Of a stretch of 12,281 nt of DNA, positions 1 to 12,281 are shown one piece after another. The stretch is from NCBI GenBank assembly GCA_012735455.1, contig JAAYHG010000242.1:1-12281 (forward strand). Reading direction: 5' to 3'. Both the position numbers and the translations under genes were made by a program. A model generated the notes under the pieces. That model did no database searches and was not told where the DNA came from. It saw only the letters and a list, made by a program, of their open reading frames with translations. The DNA is from Bacillota bacterium (GTDB lineage: Bacteria > Bacillota > DTU030 > DUMP01). The stretch's first letter is position 1, and the number at the start of each line of letters is the position of its first letter.

Positions 1-1820
1 ACCTGGAAGTAGGTTTCAAAGATCCGACGGGCTACAGGAGCCGCCGCAGAACCGCCGTGGCCCCCCTGTTCTACGATTACGGCCACTGCTATTTCCGGGT
101 TCTCATAAGGGGCGAAGCCCACAAACCAACCGTGGTCGGCACCATGGGGATTCTGAGAAGTGCCGGTCTTTCCTGCTAACTGCACAGGAAAACCTCGGAA
201 GTAGGATGTGGCGGTCCCCTCACCCTTGGTAACCAGGTTCATTCCTTCATGAATAGCCTGCACTGTTTCGGGCTTGAGTCCTACTTCTGCTTGGATTTCT
301 GGCTCAAATCGCACCAGTACTTCGCCTTCGGGCGATATTATCTCCTTGACCAAGTAGGGTTTGTAGCGCGTACCACCGTTGGCTAAAGTAGCAATATAAT
401 TTGCCATCTGAAGGGGCGTAAAAGATGAGAAACCCTGGCCAATGGCAGCACTCAATGTTTCGCCCGGTTGCCACGGCTCTGGCTTTCTTAAACCTAAGAG
501 CTTATAGTTTTCCAGTTTCCATTCAGGTGTGGCCAAGAGGCCGATACGTTCATTTGGATAGAGGTCTATCCCCGTGGGTTGTCCCAACCCAAGAAGGGAA
601 GCATAACGATTGATACCGTCAATGCCAACCCGATAACCAAGGTCGTAAAAATACACGTTGCAGGACACTGCAATGGCTCGGGTCAGATTAACAGTACCGT
701 GCCCGCCGGACTTCCAGCACTTCTTCGGCTCGATGCGCCAATAAACACCACGGTCAAAAATAGTATCCCGGGGACCAATGGTCCCTGTTTCCAGGCCAGC
801 TACACCCACCACCATCTTGAAGGTGGAACCAGGGGGATACTCACCCCGAATAGCCCGGTTCAGCTGGGGCTGCCACTTAGGATCGTTCATGGCCTCCCAG
901 ATATCCGGGGGGATTGTTTCCTTGGCAAAAACGTTAGGATTAAAGGATGGTTCACTGACCATGGCCAGAACGGCACCGGTACGAACGTCTATCACTACGG
1001 CAGCTCCAGCCTGCGTGGGAAAGCTAGACTTTATGTTCTCCATGCTCTCCCTCAGGGCCTCTGTGGCTGCAATCTGGAGGTCCCTGTCAATTGTGAGTCT
1101 GAGACTGCTGCCTGCTATGGGAACCTTACGGCCCGGCAGTGTTTTTACAGGGCGGCCTCCGCTATCTACCTCTACCTGTTCACCACCAGGTTCGCCCCTT
1201 AGATACTCATCGTAAACACGTTCCAGCCCTGTCTTGCCGACAATGTCGCCCATTTTATAACCCTTGTCACGCCAGGCCTCCAGCTCTTCTTTTGAGATTT
1301 CTCGCACATAGCCAAAAACATGGGCGCCAATCTCACCCAGTGGGTAGTCCCGGATGGGCTGCTCTTCTATGATCACCCCAGGGAGTTCCAGCTGGTGTTC
1401 AGCCACCTTAGCCAGTGTATCTATATCGGCGTCAGTGACGATACGAATTGGCATGTAGGAACGATATTCCTTCCGCTCTTTAAGACGGGCTATGGCTTCT
1501 TCCGCCTGTTCCTTAACATCGTAACCCAGAATCTCGCTGAGACGCGTAAGCACCGTCTCGGGGTCATCCATATCCATTGGCACAATGCTGATCACCGGAG
1601 CCAGCCGGCTGGTCACCAAGAGACGACCTTTGGTGTCTAAGAAGTCCCCCCGTGGAGCCGCCAGCGGTAGAAGACGGATACGGTTTTCAATGGCCATTTT
1701 CTCATAGTGCTCGCCCTGAACAAGCTGCAAGTAGCCTAAACGGCCAACCAGAACAGCAAAGACTATTACCGCTGCCCAAGTAAGTACCAAGAGCCGTTGT
1801 TCCAGTTTTTCCAGTTTCAT
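1..1820 (-). CDS. mrdA: Penicillin-binding protein 2 (class B transpeptidase, elongasome), 3' end outside window
   Basis: This is a class B PBP that cross-links peptidoglycan during lateral wall growth, working outside the membrane with MreBCD and RodA. I translated it directly from the minus strand; 606 codons are visible and the stop lies beyond the window start. Visible features: a short cytoplasmic N-terminus, one membrane segment at about residues 9-28, a dimerisation/pedestal domain at about 45-240, then the transpeptidase domain. All three catalytic motifs are present: STFK with nucleophile Ser332, SCN at 386-388, and KTGT starting at Lys551, near the visible end, so only a short C-terminus is missing. 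The ATG at 1820 has AGGTGA just upstream and lies 9 bases after the mreD stop. The order mreB-mreC-mreD-PBP2 supports an elongation PBP rather than a sporulation (SpoVD) or septal (FtsI) one. The subfamily call is strong but rests partly on context. Confidence 0.93.
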   Translation of the reverse strand, partial: MKLEKLEQRLLVLTWAAVIVFAVLVGRLGYLQLVQGEHYEKMAIENRIRLLPLAAPRGDFLDTKGRLLVTSRLAPVISIVPMDMDDPETVLTRLSEILGYDVKEQAEEAIARLKERKEYRSYMPIRIVTDADIDTLAKVAEHQLELPGVIIEEQPIRDYPLGEIGAHVFGYVREISKEELEAWRDKGYKMGDIVGKTGLERVYDEYLRGEPGGEQVEVDSGGRPVKTLPGRKVPIAGSSLRLTIDRDLQIAATEALRESMENIKSSFPTQAGAAVVIDVRTGAVLAMVSEPSFNPNVFAKETIPPDIWEAMNDPKWQPQLNRAIRGEYPPGSTFKMVVGVAGLETGTIGPRDTIFDRGVYWRIEPKKCWKSGGHGTVNLTRAIAVSCNVYFYDLGYRVGIDGINRYASLLGLGQPTGIDLYPNERIGLLATPEWKLENYKLLGLRKPEPWQPGETLSAAIGQGFSSFTPLQMANYIATLANGGTRYKPYLVKEIISPEGEVLVRFEPEIQAEVGLKPETVQAIHEGMNLVTKGEGTATSYFRGFPVQLAGKTGTSQNPHGADHGWFVGFAPYENPEIAVAVIVEQGGHGGSAAAPVARRIFETYFQ

Positions 1821-1829
1821 TCTCTCACC

Positions 1830-2360
1830 TCATCCTCGCGAGCGCTCCCGCTGCGTGAAGCGGACAGCAGTAAAAAGTTCGGCGAAGTATCGGTACAAGA
1901 AAGGGGCGAAGGCAGCGGTCACCAAGGCGTTAGGCACCATTACACGACGCAGAGCGGTAACAAACGTCCACTTCACCTGTCCGAAGGTACCCGCAGCGAG
2001 AAAAAAAAGGACCTCATCTACCAGAGTACCCGCGAAAAGAGCTACCGCAGGTAGAAGAGGGTTTTCCTTAAACACCGTACCTTCGACCAAACCCAGGATA
2101 AAACCAGTCACGCCTTTGGCCAAAGCGCGACTACCTGGTAAGCTGCCTGAGAGAATATCCTCCAGGAGACCACCAGTAATCCCCCAGACAAGGCCCTCAG
2201 CCCAGCCTCGGGCCAGCGCTACAGAGCCGACAACAACAAGAACAAGGTCCGGCCTGACCCCCAAAAAGGTAAATCGATTAATAACTGTCCCCTGAAGTAG
2301 CAAAACCCCGAGCATAGCCCCTGCTATGATCAGGACGCGCTTACTAGGTGTGACCCGCAT
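1830..2360 (-). CDS. mreD: Rod shape-determining protein MreD
   Basis: A 176-residue integral membrane protein of the MreD family, part of the elongasome that links cytoplasmic MreB to the wall-synthesis enzymes. It is nearly all hydrophobic, with about five predicted membrane helices (for example residues 8-25, 35-50 and 53-70). The polar segments include GSLPGS in the middle and a basic C-terminal tail. The family is defined more by position and hydrophobicity than by catalytic residues; length and placement between mreC and the PBP2 gene fit. The ATG at 2360 follows a GGGGAGAGGG purine tract, 11 bases after the mreC stop. The message carries an eight-U run (2001-2008 on the plus strand as A8) in the codons for VLFFL, a possible slippage site. 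The reading frame is intact as given. Confidence 0.92.
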   Translation of the reverse strand: MRVTPSKRVLIIAGAMLGVLLLQGTVINRFTFLGVRPDLVLVVVGSVALARGWAEGLVWGITGGLLEDILSGSLPGSRALAKGVTGFILGLVEGTVFKENPLLPAVALFAGTLVDEVLFFLAAGTFGQVKWTFVTALRRVMVPNALVTAAFAPFLYRYFAELFTAVRFTQRERSRG

Positions 2361-2371
2361 TGCCCTCTCCC

Positions 2372-3205
2372 CTAATTCTTCGTCCCAACGATCACTAAGA
2401 CCTCTTCCACATGGTCTAGGTCCACCAGCGGCTCCACTATGGCATGCTTACCTAAACCGTAATCCTCATCTGTGACCTCGGTAACGCGGCCCAAGAGCAG
2501 TCCCTTTGGGAACACTCCTCCCATACCGGAGGTAACAACGGCCTCACCCGGACGGATGGTGGCAGTGCGCGGCAGATACACTAAGCGAGCTTGACCGCCA
2601 CCGCCATCGCCACCCTGGAGGACCCCCACATCGCGGCTAAGCTGCCCCATGGCGCCCACGGCACTGCGCTGGTCACTGATAAGAAGTACTTCAGCTGTGT
2701 GCGCCGACACCTGAACAACGCGGCCTGCTACCCCACCAGCTGCCAGCACAACCGCATTCTCTTGCACGCCTGATTGGCTACCTCGATCGATAACAATAGT
2801 CTTATACCAATTCCCAGGATCACGGGCTACGACCCGGGCGCCCATGAGCTCATACTCAGGATAGGCAGACGGAAGTCCCACCAGTTGACGGAGACGCACA
2901 TTTTCGTTCCATATCTCGCGGGTGACATTCTCACGGTCCTTAAGCTCTTCTAGTTCCCTTCTTAACCGGGCATTCTCTGCCCCGAGACTCCTCACCTCGC
3001 TCACGAAGCTAATGGCCTGGGTTATTTTCTCACTCCCGGTAATTATCACCCGCTGTACCGGTGCCAGCGCATCCCTGAACACACCTTCCACCAGCCGGAC
3101 CTGAACATCTTGCTGTGCCGCCAAGCTCATTAGCACTGTTAGAAGCACCGTCGCCAGAGCTAGGAGCACATACTTCCGGTTCTTGGCCAGTTCAGGCATG
3201 GCCAT
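2372..3205 (-). CDS. mreC: Rod shape-determining protein MreC
   Basis: A bitopic protein that scaffolds the elongasome outside the membrane and binds PBP2. In 277 residues it shows the standard layout: a short basic N-terminus, one membrane helix at about 11-30, a coiled coil at about 67-110 rich in E, L and R, then the C-terminal beta-domain (GARVVARDPGNWYKT, SGVQENAVVL, GMGGVFPKGLLLGRV). A glycine-rich loop (GGDGGGG) sits in the middle of the beta-domain, where homologues usually have a shorter turn. The stop is 11 bases before mreD. Start choice: the ATG at 3205 has AGGAAGG (3210-3216) only 4 bases upstream; the in-frame ATG at 3199 has a 10-base spacing and cannot be excluded. The Shine-Dalgarno overlaps the mreB stop codon, indicating translational coupling. 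Confidence 0.94.
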   Translation of the reverse strand: MAMPELAKNRKYVLLALATVLLTVLMSLAAQQDVQVRLVEGVFRDALAPVQRVIITGSEKITQAISFVSEVRSLGAENARLRRELEELKDRENVTREIWNENVRLRQLVGLPSAYPEYELMGARVVARDPGNWYKTIVIDRGSQSGVQENAVVLAAGGVAGRVVQVSAHTAEVLLISDQRSAVGAMGQLSRDVGVLQGGDGGGGQARLVYLPRTATIRPGEAVVTSGMGGVFPKGLLLGRVTEVTDEDYGLGKHAIVEPLVDLDHVEEVLVIVGTKN

Positions 3206-3214
3206 CCCGCCTTC

Positions 3215-4258
3215 CTACCCACGTTTCGGTGAAATTAGCACCCGTCCCAAAACATCAATTTCGTCTAAAGCTTTGCCAGTACCACGTGCCACGCAGGTCA
3301 AAGGATCTTCGGCCAGGTGAACTGGCATGCCGGTCTCTTTCTGCAACAGAGTGTCAATACCGTGCAGCAGCGCACCACCGCCTGCCATCATAATACCACG
3401 GTCCATGATGTCTGCCGCCAATTCCGGTGGTGTCCGCTCCAATGTAACTTTTACTGCTTCAAGGATGTTCGACACCGGCTCCGCCAGGGCCTCATGGATC
3501 TCTTCCGCAGTCACCCGAATGGTCTTTGGTAGTCCCGTCACCAGATCGCGCCCTCGGATCTCCCGTTCGGCGCCCTTAAGGTCGTCGCTGATATAGGCCG
3601 AACCCAGGTTGATCTTGATCTCCTCGCCCGTACGCTCCCCGATCATCAGGTTGTAAGCGCGCTTAATGTACTGAACAATGGCCTCATCTAACTCGTCGCC
3701 GCCGATCCGAATGGAACGACTGGTGACAATACCACCCAAAGAAATGACCGCCACCTCCGTGGTACCACCACCAATATCAACAATCATATTACCAGTGGGT
3801 TCATGTACCGGCAGCTCTGCCCCGATAGCAGCCGCCATGGGTTCTTCAATCAAGTGGGCCTCTCGAGCACCAGACTGGAGCGTAGCAGCTAGAACAGCCC
3901 GTTTTTCCACTTCGGTAACACCCGATGGGATGCTAACAATAACACGCGGTTTAATAATACCTCGGGCACGATTAACCGCGGTAATGAAGTGTCGTAACAT
4001 GGCCTGAGTAACATCGAAATCTGCAATCACGCCATCCTTCATAGGGCGTATAGCAATGATGTTCCCTGGTGTGCGCCCGATCATCCGCTTGGCCTCTTCT
4101 CCCACCGCCAGCACTGCTCCCGTGTCGCGCTGCATGGCCACCACTGAAGGTTCCTGCAGCACAATGCCGCGGTTACGTATGAATACGAGGGTGTTGGCCG
4201 TTCCCAGGTCTATTCCCATGTCACGGGAAAACTGATTAAGTATGAAATTCAGGGCCAT
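3215..4258 (-). CDS. mreB: Rod shape-determining protein MreB (bacterial actin)
   Basis: Actin-fold ATPase that polymerises under the membrane and directs lateral wall synthesis. All nucleotide-binding motifs are visible (numbering from the ATG at 4258): phosphate-1 DLGTANT at 17-23, the LIEEP segment at 136-140, phosphate-2 DIGGGTTE at 161-168, and the adenosine motif [11 protein letters not shown] at 292-302. At 347 residues it has normal family length. Start choice: Shine-Dalgarno AAAGGAG at 4269-4275 lies 10 bases before the ATG and 7 before an in-frame TTG at 4261 immediately ahead of it. I prefer ATG; the TTG would add one residue. It lies 28 bases after the radC stop and 9 bases before mreC, so it probably shares a transcript with both. 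An MreB paralogue (Mbl-like) is possible, but adjacency to mreC and mreD favours MreB. Confidence 0.96.
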
Positions 4259-4286
4259 CAACTTTTGACTCCTTTCTTAGGCTCGC

Positions 4287-5024
4287 CTACTTGTCCATGG
4301 AACCTGTACCGGCAGCTGGTAAACCCAGGAGGCCTCGCTCTTTCAGGCTTACATAGCACCCATCGCCGATCACCAGGTGGTCCAAGACCTCAATCCCCAA
4401 AATGCTTCCTGCTTCCACCAAGCGACGGGTCAATGCTATATCCTCTGAACTTGGTTCCGGATCACCACTGGGGTGATTATGAAGAAGAATAACTGCAGCG
4501 GCGCTTCTCTTGACACAACCCTTGAAAAGCTCCCGCGGATGTACTAAAGCAGCACTTAAGCTGCCTACGGCCACCGTTTCCTGTGCCAGGACCTGGTTCT
4601 TCGTGTTAAGGTGCAGCGCCCGGAAGTGTTCGCGGTCGTAAAGCCGCATCTCATCTCCCACTAGCGAGAAGACATCTCGCGGGGAGCGGATTGAAGGCCC
4701 TCGCTCCGCCCCTTCACGCACCAACCTGCGTCCCAGTTCAAGCGCTGCCTTCACCTGTATTGCCTTCACCAGACCTATCCCCGGTCGCTTGGCCAGTTCG
4801 TTCAGGCTGGCTGTAGCCAGGTAGCGCAGGCCAACCTCATCACCCTCGCCAGTAAGCAACAGCTGGGCAAGATCAAGGGCCGTGCGTCCGCGGCTGCCAG
4901 TACGAAGGATGATAGCCAGGAGCTCGGCCGTAGCGAGGTTCTCAGCCCCCAACTGAGCCAATCGTTCCCGCGGACGAGAGTCCGCCGGCAGCTCCCTCAT
5001 GGTTAAGTGGTAGAGATCCTCCAT
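4287..5024 (-). CDS. radC: RadC family JAB/MPN-domain protein
   Basis: RadC-family protein of 245 residues. An N-terminal helix-hairpin-helix-like region (about 10-100, including PGIGLVKA) is followed by a JAB1/MPN+ domain (about 110-235). The metal-binding signature HxHx7SxxD is complete: His182, His184, Ser192 and Asp195, within HNHPSG. Despite the name, the family has no firmly established DNA-repair role, so its substrate should be treated as unknown. Start choice: the ATG at 5024 has a very strong purine tract (GGGAGGGAGGGAAG, 5029-5042) 4 bases upstream, whereas in-frame starts at 5057 and 5048 do not. With this start it overlaps the 3' end of maf by 83 bases. The radC-mreB neighbourhood, often with maf, is common in Firmicutes. 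Confidence 0.94.
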   Translation of the reverse strand: MEDLYHLTMRELPADSRPRERLAQLGAENLATAELLAIILRTGSRGRTALDLAQLLLTGEGDEVGLRYLATASLNELAKRPGIGLVKAIQVKAALELGRRLVREGAERGPSIRSPRDVFSLVGDEMRLYDREHFRALHLNTKNQVLAQETVAVGSLSAALVHPRELFKGCVKRSAAAVILLHNHPSGDPEPSSEDIALTRRLVEAGSILGIEVLDHLVIGDGCYVSLKERGLLGLPAAGTGSMDK

Positions 5025-5628
5025 CCGACTTCCCTCCCTCCCAGACATCAAAACCAAACACGCTAAGGAGCGAGGCCAGCTTAACTAAAGGTAGGCCAAC
5101 CACATTATAAAAACAGCCTTCAATCCGCTCGACCAGGAGGCCTCCCCTGCCTTGTACCCCATAGGCTCCGGCTTTGTCCATGGGTTCGCCTGTGGCAACG
5201 TAGGCACGGATCTCTTCGTCCCGTAAAGCACGGAACTTAACCCGGGTACACTCGTGGGCGCTCAGCACGTGGCCGCTGCTCGGTTCAACAACGGCTACTC
5301 CTGTAAACACCTCATGCCAGCGGTCGGCCAAGCGGCTCAACATAGCATGGGCCTCTCCTTCGTCCTGTGGCTTACCTAAAATGGTCCCCTCTAACACTAC
5401 GATGGTATCGGCGCCAATCACCAGTTTGTTCTCTGGTAATAATGCTGACTGGGCTGCCGCCACCGCAGCTGCCTTGCGCCGGGCTAGCTCCTCCACCAAT
5501 TTACCCGGATTAGAAGTATCCGTCACGGTTTCAGAGACAGCACTTGACTCCACACTAAAACTAAGACCGAGACCCTTGAGCAGCGCCCGGCGCCGCGGTG
5601 AGGCCGAAGCCAGAATAAGTTCTTTCAT
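4942..5628 (-). CDS. maf: Maf family nucleoside triphosphate pyrophosphatase
   Basis: Cytoplasmic house-cleaning enzyme that hydrolyses non-canonical or surplus NTPs (dTTP, UTP or modified nucleotides in characterised homologues) to NMP and pyrophosphate. Motifs: SASPRR at 8-13 (phosphate binding), GADTIV with catalytic Asp74, GKP at 85-87, KAGAYGVQG at 152-160, and GCFYNVVGLP at 171-180. It is 228 residues long, against about 190-200 for the family. The extra 30 or so residues after FGFDVWEGG (about 191-199) are Gly/Ser/Ala-rich, match no Maf motif, and overlap the radC start in another frame. The ATG at 5628 has AAGGAG 14 bases upstream, longer than ideal, but no better in-frame start exists. 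It lies 18 bases after the DUF4321 stop. The precise nucleotide preference cannot be read from the sequence. Confidence 0.94.
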   Translation of the reverse strand: MKELILASASPRRRALLKGLGLSFSVESSAVSETVTDTSNPGKLVEELARRKAAAVAAAQSALLPENKLVIGADTIVVLEGTILGKPQDEGEAHAMLSRLADRWHEVFTGVAVVEPSSGHVLSAHECTRVKFRALRDEEIRAYVATGEPMDKAGAYGVQGRGGLLVERIEGCFYNVVGLPLVKLASLLSVFGFDVWEGGKSDGGSLPLNHEGAAGGLSSAGTIGSVGG

Positions 5629-5646
5629 GCCCGCAACCGACTCTCC

Positions 5647-5898
5647 TTACAGCTGTCTGTAAAGAAGGTACCCCAAGAGGAGGCCGATAACCCCGGCTAC
5701 AGTAATGTTTAGAACAAAACCGATGGTAAACTGAAGAATGCTGATGTTGATGGTGGTAGGCGAAAAGCCCACTGTCTCCCCCAACACAAGAAAAGGAAGG
5801 TACTCAGCAAAAAGCCGACCCAGTGCACCGCCTATCAGGGCTCCTGTCAAAAGCATTGTTACCAAGAGGCCGGTGCTTCGGTATCTCCGCACTGACAT
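5647..5898 (-). CDS. DUF4321 family two-helix membrane protein
   Basis: Small membrane protein of unknown function, about 83 residues from the chosen start. Two hydrophobic stretches (about 10-30 and 54-79) flank a short loop with VLGETVGFSPTTINISIL, which resembles the conserved centre of DUF4321 proteins of Clostridia as I remember them. Each helix carries glycine motifs (GALIGGALG; GVIGLLLG), suggesting tight helix packing. Start choice: AAGGAGG at 5903-5909 sits 4 bases before the ATG at 5898 and 1 base before the ATG at 5901, so 5898 is preferred. An upstream GTG at 5931 overlaps the end of the Gx-family gene but has no ribosome site. No function should be assigned; small size and position between the Gx gene and maf are typical for these bacteria. 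Confidence 0.8.
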   Translation of the reverse strand: MSVRRYRSTGLLVTMLLTGALIGGALGRLFAEYLPFLVLGETVGFSPTTINISILQFTIGFVLNITVAGVIGLLLGYLLYRQL

Positions 5899-5927
5899 CA
5901 TTCCTCCTTCGGGAAGTCGGGTCCTTT

Positions 5928-6491
5928 TCACGTATTCAACGCCCGTGAGCTAACTCCTTTCGTCACCGGCTTTTTCCATTCACCATTTTTCGCGGGAAAG
6001 TAGCGACCAACATAAGTTGCCGTCAGCCCGACAAAATACCCCGTAGGCAAAGCAAAGGCTAACAGGTAGGGCAGGTAAAAGAAGATGCCCAAACGCTGGA
6101 TTAAAACTGTTGCCATCAGAAGCTGGGAAAGATTATGGGCCACAGCACCCAAAACGCTTACACCCATCAGACTGAAGGGCCCACGCCCCCCGCTATAAGA
6201 GATTATCATCACCAACATGCTGCCAAGGGCTCCTGCCGAACTAAGAAAAAAAGTAGTGGTAAGCAGCGTCCCGCCTAGTAGGGAACCTAGAAAGACCCTG
6301 AGGATCACTACCCACCAGGCGGAACCAGCACCATAAAAACTCAGCGCTATCAAGTTGACCAAATTGGCCAGACCCAGCTTGGCCCCAGGCAAAACACTGA
6401 GTGCAGGTAACATTCCTTCAAAGATATGGAGGGCTGTGCCGGCCGCCACCAAGAATGACAGGTGCAGTAGCTTACGCGTCTTTACCTCCAT
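5928..6491 (-). CDS. Gx transporter family / heptaprenyl diphosphate synthase component I-like membrane protein (EetB-like)
   Basis: A 187-residue polytopic membrane protein of the Hpre_diP_synt_I (Gx transporter) family, with about five or six hydrophobic segments. Recognisable features are the N-terminal HIFEGMLP (about 22-29) and the signature PGAKLGLANLVNLI (35-48). Older databases call it a heptaprenyl diphosphate synthase component, but it has no Asp-rich prenyl synthase motif. The fold resembles ECF substrate-binding subunits, so small-molecule transport or membrane anchoring is more plausible. In Gram-positive extracellular electron transfer loci the related protein is named EetB, next to a NusG-II protein (EetA) and an ApbE, the same trio as here. 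Start choice: the ATG at 6491 has AAAGG 9 bases upstream; the GTG at 6500 touches that site and is rejected. The gene ends in GTGA just before the DUF4321 gene. Confidence 0.85.
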   Translation of the reverse strand: MEVKTRKLLHLSFLVAAGTALHIFEGMLPALSVLPGAKLGLANLVNLIALSFYGAGSAWWVVILRVFLGSLLGGTLLTTTFFLSSAGALGSMLVMIISYSGGRGPFSLMGVSVLGAVAHNLSQLLMATVLIQRLGIFFYLPYLLAFALPTGYFVGLTATYVGRYFPAKNGEWKKPVTKGVSSRALNT

Positions 6492-6505
6492 GTTAAACAC
6501 CCTTT

Positions 6506-6898
6506 CTACTGCGTCAGTGCATCAGGGCCTTCCTCGTCCTCCTGGTGCCCCTCCACATGAATAACCACCTGGTTCGGTACGCAAATAATGGCTTCACCAG
6601 AGGCACTAATCCAGCCTCTCTTGACACATACCTTGTCGGGACAGGGAGAACTTACCATCCTAACTCTATTGTCTCCGCCTTCATACACGCTATACCCAAG
6701 CGGCCCCTTAACTTGCCACTGCCCTCCCGCCTTCAGGTCTTTGAGCGGGTGAGTCTCCACCACCTCGCCCTTTACTTCTACCACTACTTGGGCCTCTTGG
6801 GCTGGGGGCATAAGTCGAAATCTCATCCCCTGGTAACCGAAGACGGCCAAGGCCAAGACCACCACTGCCCCCAGTACTACCTTATCTCCGCGTGTCAC
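6506..6898 (-). CDS. Membrane-anchored NusG domain II protein (EetA-like)
   Basis: A 130-residue protein with one N-terminal membrane helix (about 7-25) followed by an extracytoplasmic NusG-domain-II (PF07009) region. The diagnostic segment is at about 85-112: PCPDKVC, then GWIS, then ICVPNQVVI, with cysteines at 86, 91 and 106 that could form a disulfide or bind a metal or cofactor. Despite the domain name it is not the NusG transcription factor, having no NGN or KOW domain. Start choice: the GTG at 6898 has AAGGAG (6905-6910) with a 6-base spacing; the upstream TTG at 6922 has no site. The first 17 bases overlap the 3' end of apbE, implying translational coupling. The same domain is in EetA of the flavin-based electron transfer system, always near ApbE in the cases I know. 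The molecular role is unknown. Confidence 0.87.
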   Translation of the reverse strand: MTRGDKVVLGAVVVLALAVFGYQGMRFRLMPPAQEAQVVVEVKGEVVETHPLKDLKAGGQWQVKGPLGYSVYEGGDNRVRMVSSPCPDKVCVKRGWISASGEAIICVPNQVVIHVEGHQEDEEGPDALTQ

Positions 6899-7952
6899 TG
6901 GCGACTCCTTCCTCTCGCACAATCTCCACCTTTTGTTTGGCGCTCGGAGTCATGATGATCTCCTCGTTCGGTGTAACCAGCACACAGCCCACGTCCTTTA
7001 GCCCTTCCACTAGCGCCAAACCCTTATCTGGGCCTAGGACAAAAACTGCAGTAGATAGAATATCCGCTTGGGCACTGTTCTTGGCAATAATGGTGACGGC
7101 CATGCTAGCGCGCGCAGGCTCCCCTGTGCGAGGATTAAAAATGTGGTGATAGCGGACACCACCCTTTATAAAATACCTTTCGTAATCACCTGACGTAACA
7201 AGGGTGTCGTCCTCACTCGTAACAATAGCTAAGACACTGCCACCGTGATCCGGGCGGGGGTTCTTAATACCAATGCGCCACGGTTTGCCCTCAGGGTGAC
7301 GGCCCAGCGCCCAAATATTGCCCCCTGCATCAATGAGGGCCGACTCTACTCCCCGTTCCGCCAGAATTTGGCGCGCTCGGTCGGCCGCATAGCCCTTGGC
7401 CGCACCACCCAAGTCCACTCCCATACCGGGACGCTTCAAATAAGCGGTCCTGGTGTCAGGGTCAAGTACCAGGTCGCGCCAGTTCACCAGTGCCTGCGCC
7501 TTAGCAATACGAGCTTTGTCCGGAACATACTCATTCTTTTTGCCAATGCCCCACAACTCAACCAAAGGGCGCACGGTAACATCAAAGGCACCGTCCGTGA
7601 GCTCAGCATAGTGCTGGGCAAGGGCAAGAAGTTCGTACGTATCCGCACTCAACACTACCGGCTGTTGGCCAGCAGCAGCATTGAGACGGCCCACCTCACT
7701 GCCCGGATCCTCTGCGCTCATTAAGTCTGCTATACGAGCCATCTCCGCCAGAGCCTCTTCCACCGCCGCCGGTGCTGCCTCACCGTAAGCAGTGATGGTA
7801 ACAACCGTATCCATCATAAATTCGGTTCGTTTGACCTCTAGCGCGGTTTGAGCCCCTCCCGGACCTCGTTCTTGAACCCGGCACCCAGCTAAAGAGATAC
7901 CCACCACTATGAGAGCAGTCAATACTAGCCCGATCAGCCTGTTTCGTCTCAC
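6882..7952 (-). CDS. apbE: FAD:protein FMN transferase, lipoprotein (ApbE)
   Basis: Transfers FMN from FAD to a threonine in target proteins outside the membrane. The 356-residue protein starts with a lipoprotein signal peptide: basic MRRNR, a hydrophobic stretch, lipobox LAGC with Cys24. ApbE motifs in order: GGAAKGYAAD (182-191), DAGGNIWALG (208-217), TSGDYERYF (253-261), HHIFNPRTG (269-277) and ADILSTA (296-302), the last region contributing metal ligands. Length is normal. Start choice: the GTG at 7952 has AAGGTGA (7960-7966) with a 7-base spacing; a nearby ATG at 7959 is out of frame. It lies 148 bases after rnfB across a hairpin. The likely substrate is RnfD (motif DTMTGAT). RnfG, the other usual substrate, is not encoded in this window. 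Confidence 0.95.
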   Translation of the reverse strand: MRRNRLIGLVLTALIVVGISLAGCRVQERGPGGAQTALEVKRTEFMMDTVVTITAYGEAAPAAVEEALAEMARIADLMSAEDPGSEVGRLNAAAGQQPVVLSADTYELLALAQHYAELTDGAFDVTVRPLVELWGIGKKNEYVPDKARIAKAQALVNWRDLVLDPDTRTAYLKRPGMGVDLGGAAKGYAADRARQILAERGVESALIDAGGNIWALGRHPEGKPWRIGIKNPRPDHGGSVLAIVTSEDDTLVTSGDYERYFIKGGVRYHHIFNPRTGEPARASMAVTIIAKNSAQADILSTAVFVLGPDKGLALVEGLKDVGCVLVTPNEEIIMTPSAKQKVEIVREEGVASDTRR

Positions 7953-8100: not shown

Positions 8101-8102
8101 TT
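8071..8102 (-). terminator. Hairpin terminator after rnfB
   Basis: On the minus strand the arms AAAGGGGCG (8094-8102) and CGCCCCTTT (8076-8084) pair perfectly over 9 bp around a 9-base loop, followed by T then CC (TTTTCCTC overall). The stem begins within the rnfB stop codon TAA (8101-8103). The U-tract is short, so this may attenuate transcription into apbE rather than stop it completely. Confidence 0.7.
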
Positions 8103-8919
8103 ACTTCGCACTCACTGCTACCCTGCCGGTAAGCTGTTCATTAATAATGATCTTTTGTGGACATTTCTCGGCACAGCGGCCGCAGTTGGTACACTTATCA
8201 TAATCAATACTGGCGATATTGTCTACCACGTGGATGGCATCAAACTCGCAGGTCTTTTCACAGATTCGGCAGGCGATGCAACCCACCTGGCAGGTCTGAC
8301 GAACTTCCCGGCCTGGAGCTTTGGAACTGCAGGCTACGTAGACCTTGGACCTCTCTGGTATCAGTGTCATAAGACCTTTAGGACAAGCCTCCACGCAGAT
8401 CCCGCAGCCTGTGCATTTCTCAGCATCCACCACTGGCAGACCGTTCTCGGCCAGGCTTAGAGCACCGAAGGGACACGCCCGGACACAATTACCCAGGCCT
8501 ACGCATCCAAAGGTACAAGCCTTGCCACCTGAGGCGAAGGCAGTTGCACTGCGGCAGTCTTGTAGTCCTTCGTACTTGGCGCGCTGAACGGCTACACCGT
8601 AACCACCATTACAGAGCAGGTGAGCGATCTTTCGTTCCTCGCCACCATCTGCTTGCACGCCCATAATTGCAGCGATTTCCTCCGCAACAGGAGCACCACC
8701 TACTAAACAGGCAGCCACAGGTGCCTCTCCCTTGGCAATTGCCTCCGCTAAGCCGCTACAACCTGGAAAACCGCAGGCACCACAGTTGGCACCTGGCAGC
8801 ACCTCGCTGATTTTTTCAGCCCTGGGATCCTTCTCCACGGCAAACTTGCGGGCCGCCACACCAAGCAGCACGGCAAAGAGGAGACCGAGACCGCCCAGGC
8901 TAACCATTGCTTCTATCAT
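8101..8919 (-). CDS. rnfB: Electron transport complex subunit RnfB (multi-cluster iron-sulfur protein)
   Basis: Cytoplasm-facing subunit that takes electrons from reduced ferredoxin and passes them into the membrane part of Rnf. It has 272 residues: an N-terminal membrane helix (about 4-23), then the RnfB/NqrB-like [4Fe-4S] site CGACGFPGC (Cys46, 49, 54, with Cys71). Four further cysteine groups follow: 135/139/145/149, 169/172/175/179, 210/214/217/220/224 and 243/246/249/253. Extra cysteines at 103, 122 and 197 may be structural or hold another cluster. This ferredoxin-like C-terminus is typical of clostridial RnfB; proteobacterial RnfB is shorter. The ATG at 8919 follows AGGGGTGAAAGAGAC, 18 bases after the rnfA stop. 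It is the last gene of the rnf cluster, followed immediately by a hairpin. Confidence 0.97.
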   Translation of the reverse strand: MIEAMVSLGGLGLLFAVLLGVAARKFAVEKDPRAEKISEVLPGANCGACGFPGCSGLAEAIAKGEAPVAACLVGGAPVAEEIAAIMGVQADGGEERKIAHLLCNGGYGVAVQRAKYEGLQDCRSATAFASGGKACTFGCVGLGNCVRACPFGALSLAENGLPVVDAEKCTGCGICVEACPKGLMTLIPERSKVYVACSSKAPGREVRQTCQVGCIACRICEKTCEFDAIHVVDNIASIDYDKCTNCGRCAEKCPQKIIINEQLTGRVAVSAK

Positions 8920-8937: not shown

Positions 8938-9525
8938 CTAAAAGAGAATACCGCGGAAAAGACCTTGGAAACCAAAGAAAGCAATTGACATGAGTCCTGT
9001 AGAGACCAAGGCAATAGGGAAGCCCTGCATGCTGGCCGGAATGTCATTGAAAACCCAACGTTCCCTGATGCCGGCAAAGAGAAGGATGGCCAGGGTCCAC
9101 CCCAACGCGCTAGCTGTACCATTTACCACTGCTGCGAGGAAGCCGTAATCCTCTGTTACATTGAGAATAGCCACACCCAAAACAGCACAGTTAGTAGTAA
9201 TGAGAGGCAGGTAGATGCCCAGAGCTTGGTACAACTCCGGGCTTACCTTCATGATAACCATCTCAACGAACTGCACCAGCGAAGCGATGACAAGGATAAA
9301 AGCCACTGTCTGCATGTACTCCAGTTCCAACGGCACGAGGATAAAGTGCTGGATAAGCCAGGTCACCGCCGAGGCTAGAGCCATGACGAAGACAACGGCC
9401 ATCCCCATACCGGAGGCAGTCTCAATCTGTTTTGACACACCTAGAAAGGGACAAAGGCCCAGGAAACGGCTAAAGATATAGTTGTTAATAAAAATGCCAC
9501 CAACGATAATCGCAATAAACTCCAT
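8938..9525 (-). CDS. rnfA: Electron transport complex subunit RnfA
   Basis: A 195-residue integral membrane subunit with six predicted helices, paralogous to RnfE and arranged in opposite topology in the complex. It carries the two conserved cysteine sites, LGLCP (Cys25) and TTNCAV (Cys113). By homology with NqrE/NqrD, these together with the RnfE cysteines hold an iron-sulfur centre in the middle of the membrane. Further family signatures are NNYIFSRFLG at the N-terminus and LYQALGIYLPLI before Cys113. The ATG at 9525 has an excellent Shine-Dalgarno (AGGAGG, 7 bases upstream) overlapping the rnfE stop codon region; the gap to rnfE is 11 bases. Length and sequence are normal, with nothing unusual in this subunit. 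Confidence 0.97.
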   Translation of the reverse strand: MEFIAIIVGGIFINNYIFSRFLGLCPFLGVSKQIETASGMGMAVVFVMALASAVTWLIQHFILVPLELEYMQTVAFILVIASLVQFVEMVIMKVSPELYQALGIYLPLITTNCAVLGVAILNVTEDYGFLAAVVNGTASALGWTLAILLFAGIRERWVFNDIPASMQGFPIALVSTGLMSIAFFGFQGLFRGILF

Positions 9526-9536
9526 GCCTATCCCTC

Positions 9537-10193
9537 CTAACCCTCAAGCTTCTGCCCGGCCGAGCCTGAGGACTGCGACTTGGAGCCCATAGGACGATTA
9601 GACAGTCGTGCAGTAATAAGGTTCATAGCTCCCAAGAGGAACCCAAGGCTGACAAATGCTCCGGGGGGTAGAATCATAACAACAGCTGGCTCGAAACCTT
9701 CCGGCATCACTGGAAGGCCAAACCAGGTCCCGGCGCCGAGAATCTCGCGGATACTAGCCAGAATAATAAGCGCCAGCGTAAAACCTGTCCCCATCCCCAA
9801 GCCATCCATGATGGACAGCGGCACTGTGTTCCTCGAGGCAACGGCCTCTGCACGACCAAGAATGATACAGTTGACCACAATAAGCGGAATAAACAAACCC
9901 AGGGTAGCATGAATATCAGGCTGGAAAGCTGCCAACACCAAATCCGCAATGGTTGTGAAAGTGGCGATAACAACAATAAAAAAGGGAATGCGCACCTGCG
10001 CTGGCGTAACATTACGCAGAAGGGATATCAAAATATTGGATGCTGTTAGTACGAAAATTACAGCTACGCCCATCCAAAAACCATTGACAACAGCTGTAGT
10101 TACCGCCAGCACCGGACACATGCCAATTACCAAGCGTAAGGTCGGGTTTTCGTTTATGACACCATTGAAAAAGGTACTCACCATTCTACCCAT
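9537..10193 (-). CDS. rnfE: Electron transport complex subunit RnfE
   Basis: A 218-residue membrane subunit, partner of RnfA. Family signatures: VINENPTLRLVIGMCP (Cys26), TPAQVRIPFFIVVIA (63-77), LFIPLIVVNCIILGRAEA (Cys109) and MDGLGMGTGFTLAL (129-142). About six helices are predicted. The final 25 residues form a polar Ser/Gly/Lys tail (SNRPMGSKSQSSGSAGQ) beyond the usual end of RnfE. Start choice: AGGAGGAG (10202-10209) lies 8 bases before the ATG at 10193; the GTG at 10214 overlaps the rnfD stop and has no site of its own, and the ATG at 10184 is less well placed. The key oddity is that rnfD ends only 17 bases upstream, where rnfG normally lies. Confidence 0.96.
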   Translation of the reverse strand: MGRMVSTFFNGVINENPTLRLVIGMCPVLAVTTAVVNGFWMGVAVIFVLTASNILISLLRNVTPAQVRIPFFIVVIATFTTIADLVLAAFQPDIHATLGLFIPLIVVNCIILGRAEAVASRNTVPLSIMDGLGMGTGFTLALIILASIREILGAGTWFGLPVMPEGFEPAVVMILPPGAFVSLGFLLGAMNLITARLSNRPMGSKSQSSGSAGQKLEG

Positions 10194-10201
10194 AACCCTT
10201 A

Positions 10202-10209
10202 CTCCTCCT
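10202..10209 (-). promoter_or_regulatory. Ribosome binding site fixing the rnfE start
   Basis: AGGAGGAG on the minus strand, right after the rnfD stop codon (10211-10213) and 8 bases before ATG 10193. It shows that rnfE follows rnfD directly as a working junction, with no residual rnfG sequence between them. Confidence 0.7.
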
Positions 10210-10210
10210 C

Positions 10211-11188
10211 TCACACACGCGCGCGGGCAGTACCGTACACCCGCGGCTGCGTCCAGCGGGCAAGGAAAGGCACAACTAGGTTCATCAAGAGAATTGAGTA
10301 GGACACACCCTCGGGGTATCCGCCCCAGAGGCGAATCAAGACTGTGATGAACCCACAGCCGATCCCGAAAATTAGCCTGCCTCTTGAAGTGATGGGTGAG
10401 GTAACGTAGTCCGTTGCCATAAAAAAGGCACCTAGGATAAGTCCGCCCGCCAAAACATGGTAAAGCGGGTCACCGGTGAAGAGTCCGTCTCTACCACCAA
10501 ACATCCAGGTTAGGAGAGCCACAGTACCTATAAACCCGGCAGGAATACGCCAGTCAATTACCTTTTGCCACAGAAGATAAGCTGCCCCGACCAGCAGCGC
10601 CAAGGCTGAAGTCTCACCCAGGACACCGCTCACATTGCCAATGAAAAGATCCAGATAAGTCGGCAATGTGCCTGAAGCCGTTCCATCGAGGATGGCCAGC
10701 GGTGTGGCGCCAGTCATCGTGTCTAGCGGAAGTGGCAGTTGGCCGGTCATGTGCGTGGGCCAAGCCGCCAAGAGAAAGGCACGTGACGCTAAAGCCGGGT
10801 TGACAAAGTTAGCCCCTAGCCCACCAAAGACCTGTTTCACCACAGCGATGGCAAAGGCAGAACCTACCGCTACCATCCACCAGGGCGCATTGGCCGGAAC
10901 GTTAAAAGCCAGCAACAACCCAGTAAGTGCAGCACTGCCATCGGCAATAGTCACTTCCCTACTCAGACTTTTTTCCACCAAGGCCTCTGTCAGTACCGCA
11001 GTCACCACGCCGGTGATAATAAGACACAGGGAACGCATACCAAAGAAGTATACGCTTACAGCTGTGGCTGGCAGGAGGGCAATGATTACCTGCCACATCA
11101 GCCTATCCACCGTCTCCCCCGCACGAATATGCGGGGAAGAAGCAACAACCAATTTCTCCAGGCTGGGCATAGCCTTCTTTTCCTCCAT
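10211..11188 (-). CDS. rnfD: Electron transport complex subunit RnfD (flavinylated membrane subunit)
   Basis: A 325-residue polytopic subunit, homologous to NqrB, that carries covalent FMN and takes part in ion translocation. About nine or ten helices are predicted. The ApbE target motif Dxx(S/T)GAT is present as DTMTGAT (156-162), making Thr162 the predicted FMN attachment site. Other family signatures: SPHIRAGETVDRLMWQVIIALLP at the N-terminus, GGLGANFVNPALASRAFL (122-139), FFMATDYVTSPIT and GGYPEGVSYSILLMN near the end. Start choice: the ATG at 11188 has a G-rich site (GGGGGG, 8 bases upstream) and lies 13 bases after the rnfC stop; a TTG at 11224 would overlap rnfC and gives a non-conserved leader. 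The stop is followed at once by the rnfE ribosome site. Confidence 0.96.
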   Translation of the reverse strand: MEEKKAMPSLEKLVVASSPHIRAGETVDRLMWQVIIALLPATAVSVYFFGMRSLCLIITGVVTAVLTEALVEKSLSREVTIADGSAALTGLLLAFNVPANAPWWMVAVGSAFAIAVVKQVFGGLGANFVNPALASRAFLLAAWPTHMTGQLPLPLDTMTGATPLAILDGTASGTLPTYLDLFIGNVSGVLGETSALALLVGAAYLLWQKVIDWRIPAGFIGTVALLTWMFGGRDGLFTGDPLYHVLAGGLILGAFFMATDYVTSPITSRGRLIFGIGCGFITVLIRLWGGYPEGVSYSILLMNLVVPFLARWTQPRVYGTARARV

Positions 11189-11201: not shown

Positions 11202-12281
11202 CTACTTGCGGCGCCGCCGCGCAATAACCTCGGCCTTGCCCAAACGCAAGGCCGGTACTAGGTGCCGTTTGGACGGGCAGGCGTAAGCACAGGACCCGCA
11301 CTCGATACAATCGACAATGTGGTGCTCCTCGGCCCGGTCCCACATTTCCTTGCGGCTGAACTGGTCAAGGAAGGTCGGCACCAGTCCGATGGGACAGGCG
11401 TCCACACAGCGGCCACAGCGAATACAAGGCTTCTCCGGCGGTATTTCCGCCTCAGTCGGAGTGAGCACCAAAATACCAGAAGTACCCTTGATCACCGGCA
11501 CTTCCGCAGAGGGAAGAGCGACACCCATCATAGGCCCACCGGAGATCAGCTTGCCTACTTCTCCTTCGAGGCCACACTGGAGCAGTAGCTCACTGAAGAG
11601 AGTACCTATCCTCACCCTCAGGTTGGCAGGGTTCATTAGCGCTGCCCCGCCTGTCACTGTTACCACACGCTCCACTAAGGGACGCCCTGTCAAGATCGCA
11701 GTGGCCAGCGCATGAGTTGTCCCAACATTCTGCACCAGTGCCCCTGCGTCTACCGGCAGGCCACCCGAGGGGACCTGACGACCGCGTACAGCTTCGATGA
11801 GCTGTTTTTCACTACCTTGCGGGTATTTACAGACAAGCTTAACCACCTCAATACGGTCGTCACCGGAGGCAGCAGCCTGAAGCGCCGCTATGGCATCCGG
11901 TTTGTTGCTCTCGATTCCAATAAAGCCGTGATCAGCACCTGTCACCTTGAGCCAGGCCTGAAGCCCCAAGACTATCTTTTCTGGCTCTTCCACCATAAGC
12001 CTGTGATCACAGGTGAGAAAGGGCTCGCACTCAGCTCCGTTGATGATTACCGCATCAAAGGCCTTCCCCGGTGGCGGCGAAACCTTCACGTGGGTCGGAA
12101 ACATAGCCCCACCCATACCCACAAGGCCTGCCTCGCGGATCACTGCCTTAAGGTCATCTCCGGTCATGACCTCAAGGTCTTGTGCTTCTGTCTCCACCCA
12201 AGTGTCAGCACCATCGGATTCAATTACAACACAAGGCACCTCACGGCCGGTGGGGATCAACCGTGTTTCTATACCCACAAC
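11202..12281 (-). CDS. rnfC: Electron transport complex subunit RnfC (NADH-binding), 5' end outside window
   Basis: Peripheral cytoplasmic subunit that binds NAD(H) and FMN and exchanges electrons with RnfD and RnfB. About 360 residues are visible; the frame stays open to the window edge. A GTG at 12278 is internal, because RnfC normally has about 80 more residues (a barrel-sandwich domain) ahead of the visible ETRLIPTGREVPCVVIE segment. Visible motifs, numbered from that GTG: GLVGMGGAMFPTHVK (51-65, Gly-rich nucleotide binding), NGAECEP (80-86), and two [4Fe-4S] sites CIRCGRCVDACP (Cys285/288/291/295) and CIECGSCAYACP (Cys324/327/330/334). The protein ends 24 residues after the second site in a basic RRRRK tail, without the long Ala-rich C-terminus of proteobacterial RnfC. 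It is the first rnf gene seen and probably the first of its operon. Confidence 0.96.
   Translation of the reverse strand, partial: VVGIETRLIPTGREVPCVVIESDGADTWVETEAQDLEVMTGDDLKAVIREAGLVGMGGAMFPTHVKVSPPPGKAFDAVIINGAECEPFLTCDHRLMVEEPEKIVLGLQAWLKVTGADHGFIGIESNKPDAIAALQAAASGDDRIEVVKLVCKYPQGSEKQLIEAVRGRQVPSGGLPVDAGALVQNVGTTHALATAILTGRPLVERVVTVTGGAALMNPANLRVRIGTLFSELLLQCGLEGEVGKLISGGPMMGVALPSAEVPVIKGTSGILVLTPTEAEIPPEKPCIRCGRCVDACPIGLVPTFLDQFSRKEMWDRAEEHHIVDCIECGSCAYACPSKRHLVPALRLGKAEVIARRRRK

Follow-up and report, generated by a model that had tools for sequence, protein, structure and literature searches.

The stretch of DNA analysed here (the window, 12,281 bp) is the whole of contig C186 of a draft Bacillota genome of 1.68 Mb, which is in 355 contigs and 93% complete. 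It carries the following genes and features of an rnf cluster and its neighbours.

11202..12281, minus strand: rnfC (TIGR01945, 450 bits, over the NCBIfam cut-off); the N-terminus is cut off by the contig end
10211..11224, minus strand: rnfD (TIGR01946, 354 bits, over the NCBIfam cut-off), with the FMN motif DTMTGAT; counted from the first start of the frame, later starts being possible
10191..10213, minus strand: rnfD-rnfE junction, with the rnfD stop, 17 bases containing GGAGGAG, and the rnfE ATG at 10193; without rnfG
9537..10193, minus strand: rnfE (TIGR01948, 235 bits, over the NCBIfam cut-off), with Cys26 and Cys109
8938..9525, minus strand: rnfA (TIGR01943, 274 bits, over the NCBIfam cut-off), with Cys25 and Cys113
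8101..8919, minus strand: rnfB, polyferredoxin subunit (TIGR01944, 122 bits against a cut-off of 68.7)
6882..7952, minus strand: apbE, flavin transferase (PF02424, E 1.6e-94), directly after rnfB
6506..6922, minus strand: NusG domain II protein (PF07009), a neighbour retained in several relatives
5928..6500, minus strand: Hpre_diP_synt_I family membrane protein (PF07456), a neighbour retained in several relatives

The usual order of the rnf genes is CDGEAB, a layout that is typical and is not needed for function. Here, on the minus strand, the last base of rnfD is 10211 and the earliest ATG in frame with rnfE is at 10193, which leaves a gap of 17 bases with the ribosome site GGAGGAG just 5' of the ATG and confirms what the sequence-only reading had said of this junction. 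The residues listed in that reading for RnfA, RnfE, and RnfD are likewise all present, and the Cys ligands of RnfA and RnfE and the covalent-FMN motif of RnfD are thus retained in the window proteins. Its central claim, that rnfG is missing from the cluster, also holds, there being no rnfG in the window or in the stretch just upstream of rnfC. The start of rnfC is on contig C169 (profile positions 1–83 matched), which has a 22-base end in common with the window; the genes 5' of rnfC on this contig are a [FeFe]-hydrogenase set, which stands where an intact rnfG had been thought worth looking for. Beyond the cluster, the rnf-apbE-nusG-Hpre_diP_synt_I arrangement continues into maf, radC, and mreB (window 1–6500; L097, L103, L106, L112–L116), and this order is largely kept wherever the fetched stretches extend far enough.

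A family search across the whole draft genome returned a single match to rnfD and a single match to the rnfG family, the latter over the curated cut-off and on a different contig.

C214 1212-2315, plus strand: rnfG, 367 residues (TIGR01947, 144 bits against a cut-off of 102, over residues 8–165)

There is a PSP1-domain (yaaT/ricT-type) gene upstream of this rnfG and yabA downstream, both identified by Pfam, with further neighbours that we take, from their sequence and order, to be holB, trmN6, and rsmI. Counts for an own promoter or terminator beside rnfG are the same as in shuffled sequence (1 versus 1.1 and 1 versus 1.5). The gene before rnfG (L006 472–1128) encodes a Cys-rich protein of the PSP1/ricT type. 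Because RicAFT of B. subtilis carries Fe-S clusters and a flavin, a redox link between this protein and rnfG is conceivable.

The C214 protein has one N-terminal hydrophobic stretch, near residues 3–29, and three FMN_bind stretches (Pfam), a content of which the two further FMN domains could not be seen from the window. There are three SGAT motifs, at Thr151, Thr253, and Thr352, reading QAISGAT in domain 1 and DAVSGAT and DVVSGAT in the two extra domains; domains 2 and 3 share 56% identity with each other, and each is approximately 30% identical to domain 1. There is one Cys overall and no CXXCH haem motif in the protein. The Dxx(S/T)GAT filter that had been proposed for finding a moved rnfG would catch this protein through domains 2 and 3 and miss the RnfG domain itself. 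When a profile of eight family members was compared with the PDB, domain 1 matched the RnfG chains 7zc6_G (E 7e-27) and 9eri_G (E 1e-21), and domain 2 matched 8p2b, a multi-flavin domain solved by crystallography (E 7e-19). A structure model of the C214 protein, built with 37 sequences (pLDDT 81.8, pTM 0.50), has a long N-terminal helix (4–48) and three compact domains whose mutual placement is uncertain; the top five matches of this model in a PDB fold search are all RnfG chains, and 8p2b_B is matched with a TM-score of 0.89 by target length. Judged by sequence and modelled fold, the C214 protein is an RnfG, with a domain 1 that matches solved RnfG. The presence of the anchor, the fold, and the acceptor Thr would make domain 1 suited to the RnfG role.

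Domain 1 has Gln in place of the Asp of DxxSGAT in 8/8 members of family f1. The motif was surveyed in 51 RnfG loci, 39 of which have an exact [ST]GA[ST] and 12 of which do not. Three residues before the Ser or Thr, the 39 loci have Q in 17 (8 of these being family f1), D in 11 (two of which, G008 and G269, are read from a later domain, the first being without an exact match), E in 5, V in 2, S in 2, T in 1, and K in 1. The motif in the solved A. woodii RnfG chain, 9eri_G, is QAITGST, and this RnfG is reported to carry covalent FMN on Thr185 (PMC11889175). In fumarate reductase, changing the Asp of the motif to Ala is described as having only minor effects (PMC12052999); the same paper terms this Asp strictly conserved, a description that QAISGAT does not satisfy. 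That the Gln is a motif defect was considered and rejected, since Gln is the most frequent residue at this position among the RnfG loci and the A. woodii motif is flavinylated with it.

The only other FMN_bind protein found in the draft genome is on contig C182, where SKAT replaces SGAT and where there is no match to the rnfG family. It is a lipoprotein-like protein of 136 residues (L007 5064–5474), and a second apbE, represented by its C-terminal part (L007 7352–7762) at the contig end, is present 2 kb from it. The sequence-only reading had left two options, that rnfG has moved elsewhere or that another extracytoplasmic flavin protein is used. The second of these is not supported by the C182 protein, and the first is supported by the gene on C214 and by the conservation of its position among relatives.

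In the window's order, each of the eight genomes (8/8, from 4 genera) has one rnfG over the cut-off and one rnfD match; in seven of these genomes the two genes fall on separate contigs, and in the eighth they are widely separated. In this last (G001, a single contig of 2.88 Mb) the distance is 2.16 Mb along the deposited sequence, which would be about 0.7 Mb around the circle if the molecule is circular. Across the class, rnfG is matched in 13/13 genomes (12 over the cut-off, the copy in G008 being broken by Ns), rnfD in 11/13, and rnfA in 11/13, and rnfG does not adjoin rnfD in any of the 11 genomes with both. There is a yaaT-type gene directly before rnfG in 13/13 and a yabA-type gene directly after it in 11/13, with a trmN6-like gene instead in G011 and G012; Pfam was run on the window genome's copies of these neighbours, the others being named by likeness. 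A scan of the RnfG alignment over genome contigs gave one locus, in a Bacillota MAG, with an RnfG resembling the one in G007.

The adjacency of rnfD and rnfE without rnfG is seen in 11/11 class genomes with rnfD, so relatives do share this feature of the cluster, as the sequence-only reading had asked. For G011 the evidence is an rnfD end that precedes the rnfE match by 24 bases on contig C61; the complete rnfD of this genome is located at a contig edge (C85), where its neighbour is not visible, and the ends of C61 and C85 have no exact overlap. The two rnfD pieces in this genome (L119 3785–3982 and L105 40–984) both span the gene end, one being merely C-terminal, and would fit a duplicate, a strain mixture, or an assembly overlap alike. 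In an assembly as fragmented as that of the window's genome, rnfG might truly belong in the cluster and have been lost by collapse at the rnfD-rnfE junction, a source of error that had been named at the outset. This is scarcely credible: the adjacency recurs in all 11 class genomes with rnfD, including single-contig G001, and is therefore not an assembly effect, the 17-base junction contains a clean ribosome site, and every class genome has its rnfG match elsewhere.

To place this arrangement in the phylum, 299 evenly drawn genomes were sampled, of which 125 have both rnfG and rnfD among the matches listed; a further 17 with rnfD but without a listed rnfG, and 18 with the reverse, are uncounted. 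Among the matches listed, rnfG follows rnfD in the same orientation at a distance of 0–400 bases in 103 of the 125. The other 22, on the same matches, are nine genomes of the window's class, seven of family f20, two single genomes (G082 and G213), two with the same order and a longer gap, and two with rnfG at a contig end. For Syntrophaceticus schinkii, a putative rnfCDGEAB operon of six genes across seven locus tags is reported (PMC5113046). Thermacetogenium phaeum is reported to be without an Rnf (PMC3551663, PMC6436200, PMC6895022, PMC5924567).

In family f20 the order is hydA-rnfC-D-E-A without rnfG between in 8/8 clusters examined, with rnfB next in 7/8 (none was detected in G269, whose contig is short). 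The rnfG of this family is directly before the Mrp Na+/H+ antiporter genes mrpE, F, G, B, C, and D in 7/7 loci fetched (L084–L090); these genes were named by Pfam in L084, except for mrpC, and in the remaining six loci by tblastn using the L084 proteins as queries. A link between Rnf and Mrp in f20 is possible. The rnfG of G174, also in f20, is split across two frames. Upstream of the f20 rnfG loci there is a DsbD-type membrane protein, except in L087, where the stretch ends too early. As to the two single genomes, G213 (L092) has an RnfG-like gene of 183 aa that is opposite in strand to rnfD and approximately 9 kb away, with CRISPR-Cas genes (Cas5 and Cas7 by Pfam) between them. In G082, of family f31 (L091, L095), there is rnfCDEAB without rnfG, and an RnfG-like protein of 447 residues with the motifs QGVSGAS and QIVSGAS is encoded elsewhere, near pyrF- and pyrE-looking genes.

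Trees of the RnfG domain and of RnfD were made from the same 46 genomes, including 10 of the 13 class genomes; class members G008, G010, and G012 were left out, as were G092 and G226, which have a short rnfD. The comparison set is non-random, being the top 29 non-class rnfG loci by score, minus those last two. The class is recovered in both trees (RnfG 0.969, RnfD 0.966), as are family f1 (RnfG 0.991, RnfD 0.995) and family f20 (RnfG 0.991, RnfD 1.0). The class and f20 together are not a clade in either tree, which disfavours one shared origin for the two relocations and makes independent moves likelier. The linkage would have been lost on two or more occasions, or on a single occasion followed by settlement at two different sites, and separate events are weakly favoured by these trees.

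Since rnfD and rnfE are adjacent in every class genome with rnfD and the class is recovered in both trees, it is most likely that the relocated rnfG has stayed the partner of Rnf. Two genomes count against a tight pairing: G010 (79% complete; L043) and G012 (97% complete; L044) have rnfG at the usual place, and there is no rnfD or rnfA match in either assembly. Either the rnf cluster is missing from these assemblies, or RnfG is able to exist without it. It might then be proposed that the five-gene Rnf uses a different extracytoplasmic flavin protein and that the C214 protein serves another pathway. The C214 gene is, after all, off the rnf contig and has two extra FMN domains, rnfG occurs without a detected rnf core in these two genomes, and a second FMN_bind protein is available on C182. 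This is nonetheless very unlikely, given that the C214 protein is the sole match over the rnfG cut-off in the draft genome, that its domain 1 is modelled with the fold of solved RnfG and that it tracks RnfD in the trees, and that the C182 protein is neither an SGAT protein nor an rnfG match.

The best explanation, held with high confidence, is a normal six-subunit Rnf, with five subunits encoded in the window and the sixth the relocated multi-flavin RnfG from C214; we infer that these assemble into one complex. In the Rnf mechanism as described (PMC11889175, PMC12174285), RnfG is the electron carrier that takes over from the [2Fe-2S] centre of RnfA/E and delivers to the FMN of RnfD. Domain 1 of this RnfG, with its membrane helix, FMN domain, and QAISGAT motif, would do the usual RnfG job, such that the domain 1 FMN would receive electrons, outside the membrane, from the [2Fe-2S] centre that RnfA and RnfE hold between them and would pass them on to the FMN of RnfD. 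ApbE would attach the flavins to RnfD and RnfG, the extra domains being predicted ApbE substrates as well. The two extra FMN domains would hang from the C-terminus like beads, and as a guess they could store extra electrons or hand them to another acceptor outside the membrane. The number of SGAT-type motifs per RnfG in family f1 is three in G000–G003, two in G005–G007, and one in G004, where RnfG is a single domain of 191 aa at the same locus. Since the number of extra domains ranges from 0 to 2 within this one family, the RnfG role does not depend on them.

A further suggestion, which adds to this explanation and does not exclude it, is that its separation from the cluster has turned RnfG into a shared electron branch, in which FMN 1 serves Rnf and the extra domains feed an acceptor outside the membrane. 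Multi-flavinylated RnfG is known from Meheust et al. (2021), by whom a second electron path to outside acceptors is suggested for it (PMC8238504). RnfG frames over 240 aa are also commoner where rnfG is unlinked (15/18) than where it is linked (17/103), among the matches listed, although these counts are uncorrected for shared ancestry and the frames of linked G051 and G227 include rnfD. Such a branch is possible, if doubtful, as its acceptor is not known and the G004 protein has a single domain at the same locus.

When set beside the Rnf complexes of Clostridium tetanomorphum (7zc6) and Acetobacterium woodii (9eri), the six subunits are encoded here too, with apbE nearby, domain 1 of RnfG is alike in sequence and fold, and the RnfA and RnfE Cys and RnfD FMN motif are retained; what differs is the distant locus of rnfG and the addition of two FMN domains to its product. 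Multiple FMN-binding domains are found both here and in the multi-flavinylated RnfG of Meheust et al., which as described there sits in RNF clusters, whereas here it is outside, in a replication and housekeeping neighbourhood (PMC8238504). The multi-haem RnfG of Christensenellales described in the same paper has CXXCH motifs, unlike the C214 protein (PMC8238504). Domain 2 resembles in sequence domain 1 of CbFMN4, which with SaFMN3 is described among multi-flavin proteins (PMC10339131; 8p2b, 8p2a), and a domain of the C214 model matches this CbFMN4 domain in fold with 44% identity over 78 columns; the FMN domains here, however, are fused to a membrane-anchored RnfG domain. The Nqr/Rnf-like two-subunit complexes (PMC8238504, PMC11334425) have RnfD- and RnfG-type parts as here, but are described as an RnfD-type part fused to a NAD-binding domain with one RnfG-type part, whereas RnfA, E, B, and C are also present here.

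Some of the relatives' proteins are already named RnfG by their sources, so the rnfG gene itself is not newly recognised. Among the matches listed from titles and abstracts of the open-licence literature, there is no report of a conserved rnfG relocation. In our judgement this is a known complex, in a conserved gene arrangement that was not found described, with an enlarged subunit of a known kind. A broader proposal is that in at least two Bacillota lineages rnfG, in most cases encoding two or three flavin domains, left the operon and became fixed in a new home, 3' of ricT/yaaT in the window's class and next to the Mrp antiporter genes in f20, maybe as a separately regulated electron branch point, which in f20 might tie Rnf to Mrp antiport; we regard this as unlikely.

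Rnf is the main ion pump in many anaerobes, and its presence is often inferred from an intact operon. By that measure a complete Rnf such as this one would be scored as being without RnfG, or its RnfG would be taken for an orphan flavoprotein, and surveys in which Rnf is defined by neighbourhood should seek rnfG across the whole genome. Close relatives that have one, two, or three flavin domains in the RnfG of the same locus provide a natural set for addressing the role of extra flavins in an ion pump.
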